Assembly: GCA_027488865.1 (NCBI GenBank)
Contig: JAIYAU010000016.1
Location: 62,001-126,000, forward strand
DNA from: Cytophagaceae bacterium
GTDB lineage: Bacteria > Bacteroidota > Bacteroidia > Cytophagales > UBA9547
Direction of reading: 5' to 3'
DNA length: 64,000 nucleotides
Part shown: positions 16,983 to 25,116 of the stretch, one piece after another
Layout of the letters: every line of letters begins with the position of its first letter
How positions within the stretch are numbered: position 1 is the stretch's first letter
The notes under the pieces: generated by a model
Told to the model about the DNA's origin: nothing
The model's input: only the letters and a program-made list of their open reading frames with translations
The model's database searches: none
Program-made: the position numbers and the translations under genes

Positions 16983-17531
16983 TTACCTTTTCGTAAAATC
17001 ATAAATGTATTGCATTGATAATCGATCATTTAGGGATTTAGAATAATGTATTTTACGAATTATCAAATTTTCATCAATTAAAAACTCTGCGGGCATAGTA
17101 CCAAAAGATTCTCCATCAGCCATAAGATGCAGCGGTAAAGACTTTATTTTAGCTGTGATAGCAGTTTGAATAAACGATGTCAAATGGCTTAAAGTAGATT
17201 TAACAACAGAATTTTCAACACCATAAATGGTGTACCATTTTTTTTCTGGATCCGCAATTAAAGGTATTGGAGAAATTTCTTTATGAAAAATACTTCTTAT
17301 TAAGGTGTTTTCATTTGATTCAAAAAAGAAAATCATTTCCAAATTTTGTGATTTTAGTTCATTTTGTACTTTTTGAAGTGCATGTACTCTTAAATTACAA
17401 AATGGACACCCAGCATGTCTAAAAAAACCCAAAAATACCTTTTTGCCATTATAATCTTCTAACGCTATTTTTCGCCCATATATATCTATTAACTCAAATC
17501 TGGGAGCAGTCACATTTAATTCTACAGTCAT
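16983..17531 (-). CDS. Peroxiredoxin-like (AhpC/TSA) thioredoxin-fold protein
   Basis: A 182-residue cytoplasmic protein of the AhpC/TSA-like thioredoxin fold. APRFELIDIYGRKIALEDY opens the domain and FFRHAGCPFCNLRVH supplies a CxxC pair in place of the single peroxidatic Cys of typical peroxiredoxins. AEFLIDENLIIRKIHY ends it. No signal peptide is present. It probably reduces peroxides or acts as a thiol oxidoreductase; the substrate is unknown. It stands alone, converging on the aconitase terminator. Confidence 0.75.
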   Translation of the reverse strand: MTVELNVTAPRFELIDIYGRKIALEDYNGKKVFLGFFRHAGCPFCNLRVHALQKVQNELKSQNLEMIFFFESNENTLIRSIFHKEISPIPLIADPEKKWYTIYGVENSVVKSTLSHLTSFIQTAITAKIKSLPLHLMADGESFGTMPAEFLIDENLIIRKIHYSKSLNDRLSMQYIYDFTKR

Positions 17532-20753: not shown

Positions 20754-21557
20754 TTAAATCAAGTTGAACTTATCAATTACCTCCACATAGGGTTCAATAA
20801 AGTAAAACAGCACAACATTTACCATAAATTGTGTACAATATGAAAATATTACAACACTAATACCCCGTAGTAGAACAAATTTTATCTCCTTGTAATAATC
20901 ATAATAGACCCAAATATTATAAATTATGGTTAACCCAATGTAAATAGGAATCACAACTACCTTAATGCCGGCATAAAATTCAATAAATGGCACAAATAAC
21001 AACAAAACAAACCATTGTACGGAGGTGATATAGCTATTAATAATCATATTTTCAGCATAGTTCGTTGATGGCTGACATTTCCTAAATACCAACCAACTAA
21101 AAAAGGAAAATATTGGAATTGAGATAAAATTGATAATTGTTGCAAAATCTTCTGCGTAGTGAAAAAATCGCTCCAAAAAAAGATGTTGCTGATCTATTAT
21201 TTGAATTCCACTATGTAAAGGTTGCAAATGTTGAGAAGTACTACTGGTAAGTTCATTAGCAAAAAAATGATATCGTAGGGACAGTAAAGTGGTTAAGGTA
21301 CCAATAAAAATAAGGAGGTTAAACGGCTGGTAAATTTGCATTCTATCTTTAGTGAGATAAATGTTTATATGTTTCCCAGGGTTTATAAGTAGCTTTATTA
21401 AGGTAGGAATAAGGTTTTTGTTACCTAAAACAAACGATTTTAGAGGCTCTAAAATCATATTTTGAAAGGTGTACCTTTCTAATATTAACTTTTGACCACA
21501 ATTAGCACAGTAAAGTTGTTTTTCAGCAATTTGATTCTTACAATTTTCGCAATTCAT
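20754..21557 (-). CDS. DUF3667 zinc-ribbon membrane protein (distal paralogue)
   Basis: A 267-residue protein with an N-terminal zinc ribbon (CENC, then CANCGQK near 18) followed by the DUF3667 region: NPGKHINIYLTKDRMQIYQPFNLLIFIG and four or five membrane helices. The function of DUF3667 is unknown; a cytoplasmic metal finger attached to an integral membrane part is what the sequence shows. It is the last gene of the minus-strand operon that begins with a secreted peroxiredoxin, and sits eight bases after a close paralogue. Confidence 0.8.
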   Translation of the reverse strand: MNCENCKNQIAEKQLYCANCGQKLILERYTFQNMILEPLKSFVLGNKNLIPTLIKLLINPGKHINIYLTKDRMQIYQPFNLLIFIGTLTTLLSLRYHFFANELTSSTSQHLQPLHSGIQIIDQQHLFLERFFHYAEDFATIINFISIPIFSFFSWLVFRKCQPSTNYAENMIINSYITSVQWFVLLLFVPFIEFYAGIKVVVIPIYIGLTIIYNIWVYYDYYKEIKFVLLRGISVVIFSYCTQFMVNVVLFYFIEPYVEVIDKFNLI

Positions 21558-21565
21558 AGAAGTTA

Positions 21566-22351
21566 TTAATGGGAAGGTATTAAATGTATCCAGGGTTTTA
21601 TTATTGCAAAAACTAAACTATTAATTACAAACTGGCTGATATAGGCAAAGAAAACCACGAAAATACCTAAAATTGCATCTTTCCACCACGCTCCTTCAAA
21701 AAACTGGGTATAGCCCCAAATATTATAAAGAATAGTTGCCACAGAATAACTTTGTATTAGTATTACTTTCGATTCAGGGAAAAACTCAAGAAAAGGTATT
21801 AGTACTATTAAAAATAACAATTGCTCCGCAGTGATGAAAGTATTTAAAATTAAATTCTCAGCAAAATTATATTTGTACTTTATAAAGAATAAGTAGGAAA
21901 ACAATGAAAATATTGGAATTGCAACTATGTTTAAAAACGTTGCATAATGTTCCGCATATTCAAAGAATTGATCAAAAAACTCTTCTTGGTTTTGAGACAA
22001 ATTCAACCATTTAAAAACGGTGATATCACTACTTTTATCAGAAAAGTCATTAGAAAAGAAATTATATCTTAACGAGGCAATCACTATTATGGTACCTGCT
22101 AAAATTAGCAACTTCATAGGCGGATAAAACCTTTGTCGCTTCCCCTCAATATAGTCCTTTGCGGTAAAACCTGGTCTAACAAACATTTCCTTTACTGTAA
22201 AAAGCAATCCCTTTTTCTCAAGATGAAAAAATGAAAACACAAAATCAGTTAAAAGATATTTTATTGTCAATCTCTCTTTAATAGCCTTTTGACCACAATG
22301 ATGACAATAGTTTAAATCGAATTCGGTGGAGCAGTTAGCACAGGTTTTCAT
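21566..22351 (-). CDS. DUF3667 zinc-ribbon membrane protein (proximal paralogue)
   Basis: A 261-residue paralogue of the next gene with the same order: zinc ribbon (CANC, then CHHCGQK), PGFTAKDYIEGKRQRFYPPMKL, then several hydrophobic helices. The GKRxRFYxPxK pattern is the best-kept DUF3667 motif. It starts one base after the DoxX stop, so translational coupling is likely. The tandem pair probably arose by duplication. No reaction is known for the family. Confidence 0.82.
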   Translation of the reverse strand: MKTCANCSTEFDLNYCHHCGQKAIKERLTIKYLLTDFVFSFFHLEKKGLLFTVKEMFVRPGFTAKDYIEGKRQRFYPPMKLLILAGTIIVIASLRYNFFSNDFSDKSSDITVFKWLNLSQNQEEFFDQFFEYAEHYATFLNIVAIPIFSLFSYLFFIKYKYNFAENLILNTFITAEQLLFLIVLIPFLEFFPESKVILIQSYSVATILYNIWGYTQFFEGAWWKDAILGIFVVFFAYISQFVINSLVFAIIKPWIHLIPSH

Positions 22352-22352
22352 G

Positions 22353-22757
22353 TTACTTTAAGTTAAGTTTTAATCTTACAGAATCCCAGTATGGAAACTG
22401 TTCTTTATACATCCAAATCAAAACAATACAGCAAATTTCTACAATAACTGCGTAGTAAAATAACTGACCTCCATCATTCATAATCACAATTCCTAATCTT
22501 GTAAGATGAAACATAAGCGCTCCAGAAATAACACCAGCGCCTAACAAGGCTCCAAAAATAATTGTTCTTGGATATAAGAGCAAAATACTGGCAATTAGTT
22601 CGGCTATACCTATCCCAATTCTACCAACTGGCTCTAAACCTACTTGCGTAAAAATATACACGCTTTCTGAGCTAGCAGTAAATTTAAAAAAAAGGGTTTG
22701 TAACATGATAACAGCAGCAATACCTCGCAAGGTCCAAGACAAAATTGATTTTTTCAT
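22353..22757 (-). CDS. DoxX family membrane protein
   Basis: A 134-residue protein with four predicted membrane helices (about residues 8-25, 45-62, 67-85 and 98-118), matching the DoxX/MauE-like fold, with GIGIAELIASILLLYPR in the second helix. DoxX proteins are linked to redox and thiol-stress functions at the membrane, and some reduce or pass electrons to partner enzymes. The position between a secreted YHS protein and DUF3667 proteins in one operon fits an envelope redox role, but that is inference. Confidence 0.82.
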   Translation of the reverse strand: MKKSILSWTLRGIAAVIMLQTLFFKFTASSESVYIFTQVGLEPVGRIGIGIAELIASILLLYPRTIIFGALLGAGVISGALMFHLTRLGIVIMNDGGQLFYYAVIVEICCIVLIWMYKEQFPYWDSVRLKLNLK

Positions 22758-22787
22758 TAAAATGGATTTAGTAGTTTATTAGTAATT

Positions 22788-23258
22788 CTATTTGGCCTCA
22801 ACAAATTGATTCCAACTCTTTTCTGACTTTTTAAATAAGATTTGTTCGTTTTTATTCCACAACGTGAGGGTATTGGTAAAAAACTTATTGTAAAACAGAT
22901 ACAACTTGCCATTTAAGATTTTAAAGGTTTCTGGATCTATTTCAACTTTTTCGCCTGAGTTTCCCATTGCATATGCACACCAACCTCCATACTGCGGCTC
23001 ATATTTAGATGGTTCCTTCTTAAATGCTAACAGATTTTCAATAGTTGAAAAATTATAAATAACTCCCTTGTGCGAAATAGCAATATCGCTTTTACCTTTT
23101 ATAGCTTTGTTAGAAAGAAAGTAAGAAACTGGATCATATCCCTTTATAGCCACATGGTTAGTTGGCAGATTAAAGTGCTTTAATCTAATCATTTGATCTT
23201 CTTGTGCAAAGAGTTGAAAATTAACTAATAGTATAAATAAATACAGTACCTTTTTCAT
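22788..23258 (-). CDS. Secreted YHS domain protein
   Basis: A 156-residue protein with a signal peptide (MKKVLYLFILLVNFQLFAQ). The YHS-like domain begins AIKGYDPVSYF, continues YNFSTIENLLAFKKEPSKYEPQYGGWCAYAMG, and ends with DPETFKILNGKLYLFYN. YHS domains often bind metal ions or accompany metal and redox proteins; here Cys of GGWCAYAMG and nearby His are candidates. It is the second gene of the peroxiredoxin operon, 20 bases after that gene. Confidence 0.83.
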   Translation of the reverse strand: MKKVLYLFILLVNFQLFAQEDQMIRLKHFNLPTNHVAIKGYDPVSYFLSNKAIKGKSDIAISHKGVIYNFSTIENLLAFKKEPSKYEPQYGGWCAYAMGNSGEKVEIDPETFKILNGKLYLFYNKFFTNTLTLWNKNEQILFKKSEKSWNQFVEAK

Positions 23259-23278
23259 ATTGAAGTTTCTTTGAGATT

Positions 23279-23821
23279 TTACCTTTTTATAATTGATTCT
23301 ACTTTTTCTAATATAATCCTTGCTTCTAACCGAACCTTGTAATCAGGGTCAAAATGCACAAATTGTACAACACCTTTAGTATCTACAATAAAAACTGATG
23401 GGGTGGGCAGAGTAGGTTTACCATTTACGAGGGTTGCCACGCCAAATTTTACAGCAGCAGCGTCCGTATCGGTATATAAATCATAATCCAAGTCATTGGT
23501 TTCTTTAGTTTTCTCAAGTCCTTTTTTAGGTTCGGGACTTATAGCCATAATTTTCACACCTTTTCTCCTCAAAGCGCGATTAATATCTTGCAAATCACTC
23601 AAGTGTGCGTTGCAAAAAGGACACCAACCCCCTCTATAAAAAATTATTACTGAAGTCGTGCTGTTTATTTCATCCACCAGTTTAACCCCTTTCCCTTCTA
23701 GGGTATTAAGATACACCGCTGGAACACTATCACCTACTCCTAATGGTATACCATTTCTATTCTGTGCAGTTGCCCAAGTAACCAGTATTAAAATAATTGC
23801 GACAGTTAATTTTCCCTTCAT
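23279..23821 (-). CDS. Secreted peroxiredoxin (AhpC/TSA family)
   Basis: A 180-residue protein with an N-terminal signal sequence (MKGKLTVAIILILVTWATAQ) and an AhpC/TSA thioredoxin fold. FYRGGWCPFCNAHLSDL places the peroxidatic Cys within a CxxC pair, and VFIVDTKGVVQFVHFDPDYKVR closes the fold. It should act in the periplasm, reducing peroxides. It heads a minus-strand operon with YHS, DoxX and two DUF3667 genes. An exact -7 box lies 29-36 bases before the start and a perfect inverted repeat sits just upstream. Confidence 0.85.
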   Translation of the reverse strand: MKGKLTVAIILILVTWATAQNRNGIPLGVGDSVPAVYLNTLEGKGVKLVDEINSTTSVIIFYRGGWCPFCNAHLSDLQDINRALRRKGVKIMAISPEPKKGLEKTKETNDLDYDLYTDTDAAAVKFGVATLVNGKPTLPTPSVFIVDTKGVVQFVHFDPDYKVRLEARIILEKVESIIKR

Positions 23822-23849
23822 AGATTATGTTTTGTTATAATTGATAAAA

Positions 23850-23857
23850 CAAAACTA
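23850..23857 (-). promoter_or_regulatory. -7 box of the peroxiredoxin operon
   Basis: CAAAACTA on the plus strand reads TAGTTTTG on the minus strand, an exact TAnnTTTG match. The 5' leader would be about 25 bases. Confidence 0.45.
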
Positions 23858-23877
23858 AGAAAGGAATAAAACAAGAG

Positions 23878-23895
23878 TTGTCAGCCAACTGACAA
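23878..23895. promoter_or_regulatory. Perfect 7-bp inverted repeat upstream of the peroxiredoxin operon
   Basis: TTGTCAG, four bases (CCAA), then CTGACAA. The repeat covers the place where the -33 box of the operon promoter would lie, so it could be an operator. It also follows the CarboxypepD_reg-like gene by 26 bases and could be a weak terminator, though the T-run after it on the minus strand is interrupted. Confidence 0.5.
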
Positions 23896-23921: not shown

Positions 23922-24593
23922 CTAACGTTTTAATTTTTTACCGTCTTCATTATAGGATTTCTTTTTAAAATCACCATTTCTGATAGATTTTACCAACTGC
24001 ACCCACGCAAAAGGGTTAGTAAGAGGATTGTAAGCGCTAGGATCCATATATTTACGTTCTTGCCTAAGTGCTTGTTGCTGCGTGAACCAACGGTGGTTCA
24101 TGGCACCATCATAATATGTTTCTTCAAACATAGCGGCAAGTAGACGATCATTTAAGTTCCTATTCATGTTACGGTTGTCCTCTTCGGGTAACCTAAGTGC
24201 CAAAAAGGCCTGTTTAAATAGTTCTTCGGTATAATAAGGAAACACCTCAATTATAGGTAATAACAAAGTATCTTGTTTTAATTCTATCATTACCGAAATA
24301 TTTGAAGCCTCATTATTAGGTATTACAAAAGTTGTAGATTTATAACCTGTTGCAATAATAATTATACTATCGTTGGTTAATGCTGGCATTGAAAAGTAAC
24401 CTACCGCATTGGATAAAGCTCCCCTACCTGTTTTAGGAATATATAAAGAAACATAAGGTACGCCATTTAGGCTATCACCACCGCTCACCACCACACCTGA
24501 AAACTGAACAATTTTGGGTTCTCCTTGAGCCAAGGCCCAATCAAGTTTACAAAATAGTAAAATAGATATAATACCGATTAACTTTAGTTTCAA
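23922..24593 (-). CDS. Secreted protein with N-terminal carboxypeptidase-regulatory-like domain
   Basis: A 223-residue exported protein: signal peptide to about residue 22 (cut near ALAQG), then a CarboxypepD_reg-like beta-sandwich (VQFSGVVVSGGDSLNGVPYVSLYIPKTG..., ending near MIELKQDT). The remaining half is helical and rich in Asn, Arg and aromatic residues (FEETYYDGAMNHRWFTQ), with a basic tail. Proteins of this build are common in Bacteroidota and of unknown role. The gene is divergent from the ArsR-type regulator. Confidence 0.75.
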   Translation of the reverse strand: MKLKLIGIISILLFCKLDWALAQGEPKIVQFSGVVVSGGDSLNGVPYVSLYIPKTGRGALSNAVGYFSMPALTNDSIIIIATGYKSTTFVIPNNEASNISVMIELKQDTLLLPIIEVFPYYTEELFKQAFLALRLPEEDNRNMNRNLNDRLLAAMFEETYYDGAMNHRWFTQQQALRQERKYMDPSAYNPLTNPFAWVQLVKSIRNGDFKKKSYNEDGKKLKR

Positions 24594-24664: not shown

Positions 24665-24726
24665 CTATCATTCTTTAGATTAATTGTTATAGAAAATGAT
24701 TAGGATTATTGGTATTTACTGTAAAA

Positions 24727-25116
24727 ATGCGCTTAAAAAATTTTAGTTTAACATTCGGGGGGCAAATTTTTAAAGCATTTAGTGACGAATCACGTGTACG
24801 TATTCTACATTTATTGTACAAAAACGAACAAATGTGTATTTCTGACGTTGAGCTAGTGTTGGATTTTACCCAAACTAAAACTTCAAGACATCTAATTTAT
24901 CTAAAAAACGCAGGATTGGTCAATTATAGACGTCACGACCAATGGGTGTACTACTTTATTAAAGATGAAGTTTTTGATATTGTAAGCCAAATTTTTAAAT
25001 ATTTAGAAAGAGACAGTATTCTTCAAGCAGATCAAGATACTTATCAAATTTTATATTCTAATAGAGAACTAGCGGTAAACAAACTTCATATCAGAAAATA
25101 TATTGCCCAAAAATAA
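24727..25116 (+). CDS. ArsR-family winged-helix transcriptional regulator
   Basis: A 129-residue DNA-binding protein. The ArsR-type fold shows FKAFSDESRVRILHLLYKN, then the recognition helix region VLDFTQTKTSRHLIYLKNAGLVNYRR, then the wing HDQWVYYFIKD. The usual metal-binding CxC in the recognition helix is absent; the only visible Cys is in QMCISDVE. It probably senses something other than a classic As/Zn ligand. The frame is open from TTG 24709, but ATG 24727 is preferred. It lies next to rpsU-xerC-hpf and divergent from the gene at 24593. Confidence 0.85.
   Translation: MRLKNFSLTFGGQIFKAFSDESRVRILHLLYKNEQMCISDVELVLDFTQTKTSRHLIYLKNAGLVNYRRHDQWVYYFIKDEVFDIVSQIFKYLERDSILQADQDTYQILYSNRELAVNKLHIRKYIAQK

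Follow-up and report, generated by a model that had tools for sequence, protein, structure and literature searches.

A possible Crp/Fnr-controlled envelope unit pairing a YHS (seleno)protein-family member with a DoxX protein in Bacteroidota

DoxX-type systems include the DoxDA thiosulfate:quinone oxidoreductase, the mycobacterial DoxX-SseA-SodA complex and MauE, and the canonical YHS/TRASH-type metal site is built from several Cys and His ligands. CooA, a regulator of the Crp/Fnr family, uses an RQ recognition helix. Relatives of these proteins, or a resemblance to their binding site, come together in a 64,000-nucleotide stretch of a Cytophagaceae bacterium (hereafter the window; assembly GCA_027488865.1, contig JAIYAU010000016.1, positions 62,001 to 126,000), where a minus-strand run of five open reading frames (ORFs), from 23821 down to 20754, encodes a peroxiredoxin-like protein (Prx), a member of the YHS (seleno)protein family (YHS), a DoxX protein and two DUF3667 proteins. 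The component families are known; their conserved, dyad-marked combination is undescribed in the literature searched, outside which most subscription papers lay. No paper there combined DoxX with YHS or 'YHS domain', in agreement with a first-pass annotation that had called the unit not yet described, and the papers on DUF3667 looked unrelated in the parts available. Our tentative reading, to which we give somewhat less than an even chance, is that Prx, YHS and DoxX form a co-inherited, Crp/Fnr-controlled envelope unit to which DUF3667 was added; comparison supports the unit and its switch, and we infer the electron path.

Comparison of genomes shows that genes assigned to the YHS and DoxX families tend to be found in the same genomes throughout the phylum and, in the window's class, often stand side by side. 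In a phylum sample of 345 genomes, with presence set at E <=1e-12 for YHS relatives and E <=1e-10 for DoxX relatives, YHS was found in 46 genomes, DoxX in 42 and both in 35 (Fisher p 2.6e-31, relatedness ignored). The two genes lie at most 1.5 kb apart in 17 of these 35 genomes and at most 100 bases apart in 13; all 17 linked genomes belong to the window's class, and in other classes both genes are present and unlinked. A sample of 118 genomes of the window's order, overlapping the phylum sample in some genomes, gave YHS in 37, DoxX in 36 (43 before removal of genomes whose best match was weaker than about 3e-10) and both in 30 (Fisher p 1.3e-15, relatedness again ignored), with the pair within 1.5 kb in 17 of the 30. 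The linked pair is thus known from 32 distinct genomes, the window's own included, drawn from 13 family codes. This return of the YHS-DoxX core in many other genomes carries the operon grouping beyond chance, and the lack of co-conservation that the first-pass annotation had named as its own refutation did not occur for this pair. No DoxX is annotated beside a plasmid-borne YHS gene in the one Rhizobium record that has a gene table.

The YHS protein belongs to NF041384, 'YHS domain-containing (seleno)protein' (128.7 bits, cut-off 70), and Pfam YHS alone gives 22.4 bits, under its cut-off of 30.3. Both YHS and Prx begin with a hydrophobic, signal-like stretch ending in AQ, as read from the sequence and not by a signal-peptide program. 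The single Cys of YHS, Cys94, is invariant in 40 of 40 aligned rows, among which no His is conserved; the first-pass suggestion of metal binding is therefore unsupported as far as an ordinary multi-ligand site of the YHS/TRASH type is concerned. The family has been listed with a selenocysteine (Sec) form of motif GxU, and the passages available on it name no function (PMC13188914). The GGWC94 motif of the operon protein places its Cys, rather than Sec, at the GxU position, and a lone Cys that can be Sec favours redox chemistry over a zinc-type site. In genome G081, where a TGA falls within a weak YHS match, no motif of the selenocysteine form was found on the one strand of the stretch searched. 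The structure model of YHS was poor (predicted local distance difference test, pLDDT, 59; six sequences) and its structure search was empty at E 0.001; matches to eRF1 in a PDB sequence search (best E 0.005) were taken as chance.

The operon's DoxX is a small multi-helix membrane protein whose match to DoxX_2 (PF13564; 26.8 bits) lies just above the cut-off of 26.3, and a PDB sequence search with it gave no match at E 1. In its size, helices and family match it resembles DoxX, DoxX_2 and MauE proteins, from whose systems it differs in having YHS as a recurrent partner and no conserved Cys: K25, R46, E53 and H84 are invariant in 30 aligned rows, of which 11 have Cys at position 109 and 15 at position 110. 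These rows thus show no conserved Cys pair of the kind that a Cys-based membrane thiol oxidoreductase would have, and the idea that DoxX performs thiol redox through its own cysteines is unsupported.

A perfect dyad precedes the operon, and a dyad resembling it, interpreted here as a candidate operator, precedes many YHS genes of the order, as comparison shows. With the window's own dyad as query and the window left out, matches of at least 11 of 14 positions between -150 and +30 around the start were found at 15 of 73 other YHS genes versus 14 of 1,014 other genes of the same loci (p 2e-11), the 150-base stretch having been picked after an earlier dyad survey. These counts point to a conserved operator. 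The 15 YHS dyads span ten family codes, all in the window's order according to the genome tables, and in 10 of the 15 the centre lies 53-64 bases before the start codon. The earlier survey was partly circular, the motif having been generalised from TTGTCAG-N4-CTGACAA to TTGTCR-N6-YGACAA after the first matches; its first pass gave 53 matches in 1.08 Mb versus 50 expected, and the signal lies in where the matches fall. In the 4.33 Mb of the window's own genome, the TTGTCR-N6-YGACAA 18-mer occurs once, at the operon.

Reading 16 of the 26 exact 18-mer sites found in 16 genomes left 11 without a clear link and five by relevant genes: the window's Prx (G000), YHS (G019), a second YHS with DUF3667 (G069), a barrel gene (G064; 'barrel-like' is our own label for a protein with no Pfam match) and, on contig C1 of G062, a secreted gene accompanied by thioredoxin-like genes. 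A further exact site, on contig C18 of G006, is the dyad before YHS in locus L143. In five of nine loci (L023, L024, L026, L028, L029), DUF3667 genes or the operon holding them are preceded by dyads of 10-12 of 12 positions; such dyads also precede barrel-type genes in L146 and L315, the latter in a different part of its genome from YHS, and some sit in divergent promoters. In G062, a dyad within positions 1-2640 of L317 precedes the gene of a secreted protein and a pair of genes with weak thioredoxin likeness (WCKYC and WCPSC); a barrel relative and a broken Crp frame lie close by.

A candidate reader of such a dyad is suggested by the neighbourhood. Among 60 loci with a strong YHS match, a Crp/Fnr gene lies within 6 kb in 19, the window locus not being one of them, and the RQ recognition helix is found in 19 of 22 neighbourhood Crp proteins and in 18 of the 19 of those that stand in YHS loci. 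The operator consensus of CooA is given as TGTCGGCNNGCCGACA in the passages available (PMC545781), and the window's dyad shares with it the TGTC...GACA half-sites and the length. Unlike CooA systems, the annotated neighbours include no carbon monoxide dehydrogenase genes.

Prx is assigned to the thiol peroxidase family by its AhpC-TSA match (73.7 bits, Pfam cut-off 26) and has exactly two Cys, both in a CPFC pair (C67, C70). CPFC is atypical for classical 2-Cys enzymes. Prx resembles SelL-related redox proteins in family, in a GGWCPxC motif and in a weak match to NF040769 (46.2 bits), from which it is set apart by its signal-like start and by a score far under that model's cut-off of 120 and under the other listed NCBIfam cut-offs. 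Prx, YHS and DoxX stand in the window's order in six genomes of genus g77 (G173, G285, G314, G353, G445, G449), which belongs to the window's class and to another order. Another genome of that genus, G184, lacks Crp-Prx-YHS-DoxX at this place, and an acyl-CoA-dehydrogenase-like gene, the one flank, is followed directly by the other, DinB-TANGO2-ATP-grasp-LysE. In a tree set against Prx of the order only, window and g77 Prx do not form one clade (approximately unbiased test, p-AU 0.0023; the window row sits on a long branch), and the same kind of Prx was therefore probably recruited twice. Prx as a universal partner was rejected: 29 of 30 Prx loci, all but the window's, are unlinked to YHS or DoxX, standing on another contig than the YHS or DoxX of the same genome, at least 160 kb away, or in a genome without a match. 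Another AhpC/TSA protein, which has CPFC and lacks a signal-like start (16983-17531, minus strand), is encoded some 6 kb away from the operon and is only distantly related to Prx (22.9 bits).

DUF3667 joins YHS-DoxX in one subclade only, as far as gene positions in the sampled genomes indicate. Copy 1 matches PF12412 with 49.1 bits; copy 2 scores 25.2 bits by hmmscan, where the cut-off is 27, and 28 bits, above it, in the genome search. The copies are 37-38% identical and share the family plan of membrane helices and a four-Cys ribbon, CxxC...CxxC near the N terminus, whose C4, C7, C16 and C19 (copy 1 numbering) are invariant across 35 aligned sequences; a linked DUF3667 protein in L025 (5983-6753, P0003) lacks the N-terminal ribbon. 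Of the 118 order genomes, 72 have relatives; counting only the 20 best DUF3667 places, which come from 17 genomes, 8 of these 17 have YHS or DoxX no more than 5 kb away. In a scan of named genomes, in which some loci were short, 5 of 80 DUF3667 loci were linked to YHS or DoxX, all among the 11 best-scoring and from genomes also in the order sample; none of the other 69 was, and DUF3667 as a general partner was rejected. The DoxX-YHS-DUF3667 neighbourhood proposed by the first-pass annotation thus holds for its YHS-DoxX core and for DUF3667 in that subclade, which sets the operon's copies apart from the family at large. The structure model of DUF3667 copy 1 was confident (pLDDT 90, predicted template-modelling score 0.87); Foldseek gave no match at E 0.001, the best VIA-align Z was 3.4, and no solved fold matched well.

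In the window the compact five-gene run that the first-pass annotation had described, with gaps of 1-30 bases, was confirmed: from Prx to the second DUF3667 gene the intergenic distances computed from the coordinates are 20, 30, 1 and 8 bases (Table 1). The dyad falls between Prx and a CarbopepD_reg_2 gene, which is for that reason probably a separate transcription unit and has no relative among the clustered neighbouring genes of other loci. Taking TAnnTTTG to be the Bacteroidota -7 consensus, the possible -7 element at 23850..23857 would set the dyad near -41.5, the position of a class II activator. Divergent from the CarbopepD_reg_2 gene stands an ArsR-type regulator (24709-25116, plus strand; HTH_5, 39.3 bits).

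Table 1. Features of the operon and its upstream region, in window coordinates
Feature	Coordinates	Strand	Remarks
Prx, AhpC/TSA-type peroxiredoxin-like protein	23279..23821	-	180 aa; Pfam AhpC-TSA; RGGWC67-P-F-C70
YHS (seleno)protein-family member	22788..23258	-	156 aa; NF041384
Sole Cys codon of YHS, Cys94 in GGWCAYAM	22977..22979	-	invariant in alignment
DoxX small membrane protein	22353..22757	-	134 aa; DoxX_2
DUF3667 membrane protein, copy 1	21566..22351	-	261 aa; PF12412; N-terminal four-Cys ribbon
DUF3667 membrane protein, copy 2	20754..21557	-	267 aa; PF12412
CarbopepD_reg_2 gene, upstream of operon	23922..24593	-	Pfam 35.9 bits; 100 bases before Prx
Perfect dyad TTGTCAG-TTGG-CTGACAA, candidate Crp/Fnr-type operator	23878..23895	-	centre about 65 bases ahead of Prx start codon
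TAGTTTTG, possible Bacteroidota -7 element (TAnnTTTG)	23850..23857	-	read from sequence

These observations suggest a model in several steps. The dyad would be bound by a Crp/Fnr protein whose recognition helix is of the RQ type, and the operon would thereby be turned on under some stress. DoxX, in the inner membrane, would draw electrons from quinol through its invariant charged residues, not through cysteines, and pass them to YHS in the periplasm, at its single Cys94; YHS in turn may reduce the CxxC of Prx or, directly, an oxidised target, such that peroxides would be removed or oxidised groups repaired in the periplasm. The two DUF3667 proteins, with a cytoplasmic ribbon and four to five membrane helices, would have been added in this lineage and share the switch, perhaps acting from the membrane as adaptors or assembly factors. 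The first-pass annotation had proposed an envelope unit for metal/peroxide protection or electron transfer; apart from the two chemistries found unsupported above, own-Cys catalysis in DoxX and a multi-ligand metal site in YHS, this stands in so far as YHS and DoxX are co-conserved, with Prx joining in one genus of another order and DUF3667 in one subclade. It had overlooked the dyad resembling an operator, the Crp/Fnr gene that often accompanies such loci and the wider gene surroundings.

A bolder version of the model, which we consider unlikely, has electrons flow from quinol to thiol (or selenol) into the periplasm by way of DoxX and the YHS (seleno)protein, independently of cysteine relays of the DsbD/CcdA type, with a dedicated CooA-like Crp/Fnr switch and with Prx and DUF3667 as plug-in modules. 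If this is true, the YHS selenoprotein family and this DoxX branch would each acquire a first function, and the electron path would be a new route for reducing power to the bacterial periplasm. The comparisons tie together four families of uncertain role, namely the NF041384 YHS proteins, this DoxX branch, DUF3667 and the RQ-type Crp proteins; linked by co-occurrence, gene order and the shared operator-like dyad, each becomes testable through the others.

Several observations count against the picture of a co-inherited, switched envelope unit. The two genes of its core are unlinked in 18 of the 35 phylum genomes and 13 of the 30 order genomes that have both, no linked pair occurs outside the window's class in the phylum sample, and the Fisher tests of co-occurrence take no account of relatedness. 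Of 60 YHS loci, just 7 have Prx next to YHS, those of the window and of a single genus, and even there the block is not always whole: among g77 genomes, G266 has YHS alone, G310 has YHS-DoxX without Prx, and G198 and G395 carry YHS without DoxX at that place. As for the switch, exact 18-mer sites numbered 26 versus 24 in the reversed control across the 16 genomes and hence give no sign of a large regulon; four of the nine DUF3667 loci (L025, L027, L030, L040) have no dyad before DUF3667, g77 loci lack a full-strength dyad (8-10 of 12 before YHS and Prx), and the window's dyad has a terminator-like score as well. In the 332 kb of the window's own genome that were searched, no RQ-type Crp gene turned up. 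TANGO2 and LysE neighbours match a plain peroxide unit poorly, and the electron donor and acceptor are putative.

The wider neighbourhood bears on what else the operon might do. Within 6 kb of YHS, the 60 loci, picked for YHS or DoxX matches such that the DoxX share is biased upwards, hold DinB in 34, DoxX in 30, ATP-grasp in 29, TANGO2 in 26, LysE in 18 and DM13 in 11, besides Crp/Fnr in 19. Rarer are the barrel-like protein (8), Prx (7), YceI (6) and DUF3667 (at least 3, an undercount since an overlapping longer frame hid it in L026 and L029). One full order reads Crp-Prx-YHS-DoxX-DinB-TANGO2-ATP-grasp-LysE. DM13, described by the term 'electron transfer', and YceI were counted for the redox reading. 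A PADLOC search gave no match at E 0.01.

The main rival, possible and somewhat less probable still than the redox unit, is metal or heme handling: the YHS Cys would bind copper, iron or heme on the periplasmic side, DoxX would move or hold this ligand within the membrane, and Prx would guard against metal-driven peroxide. It draws on TANGO2, present in 26 of 46 YHS genomes of the phylum sample as well as in the loci just counted; bacterial homologues are reported as heme-trafficking proteins in the passages available (PMC10470608), and those of another source call TANGO2 an acyl-CoA binding protein (PMC11867700). In Flavobacterium psychrophilum, the hfp heme operon, which responds to iron, also includes a DoxX protein (PMC9331221). 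Against this, YHS offers one Cys and no conserved His, TANGO2 occurs without YHS in 9 of 35 genomes, and the ten annotated neighbour proteins, other recurrent clusters being without tool annotation, include no metal transporter or heme enzyme.

Less probable again is a small-molecule pathway, in which DinB, TANGO2 and ATP-grasp would make or modify a compound, LysE would export it, and YHS, DoxX and Prx would be its redox tailoring or protection arm. In the phylum sample, 40 of the 42 genomes with DoxX and 38 of the 46 with YHS have ATP-grasp, the order DoxX-DinB-TANGO2-ATP-grasp recurs in many loci, and another lineage has a homologous ATP-grasp in fusion with a VTT membrane domain. The pathway is disfavoured by the window's own genome, where DinB-TANGO2 and ATP-grasp lie off the operon's contig and apart from each other, by G184, where the DinB-TANGO2-ATP-grasp-LysE module does without YHS, and by the dyad survey, in which DinB, TANGO2, ATP-grasp and LysE genes had no strong match upstream (at most 10 of 12).

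That the envelope genes are merely close by chance or shared inheritance, with no common function and the dyad serving as terminator of the upstream gene, would fit the terminator-like score, the uncorrected co-occurrence tests and the patchy linkage of Prx and DUF3667, and is improbable given the 32 genomes, from 13 family codes, in which YHS and DoxX stand together, the spread of the 15 YHS dyads over ten family codes with 10 of them centred 53-64 bases before the start, and the recurrence of dyads before YHS, in divergent promoters and before a barrel gene away from YHS, which speaks for an operator over a terminator.

Three further arrangements were observed around these genes. A second YHS paralogue stands beside the main YHS or divergent from DUF3667 in L024, L026, L029, L133, L143, L258, L259 and L272, and is of the GGYCAYG type in the first three. 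In the window's own genome, the DinB and TANGO2 genes share a 13-base overlap (L299, 5501-6726), and the DinB-TANGO2 pair recurs in many loci. Finally, the ATP-grasp fused to a VTT (DedA-like) membrane domain is found in other lineages at L302 (549-2996), the locus to which the Pfam assignment applies, with similar ORFs in L305 and L306; by reading, ORFs of this type stand behind an alpha/beta-hydrolase-like gene.

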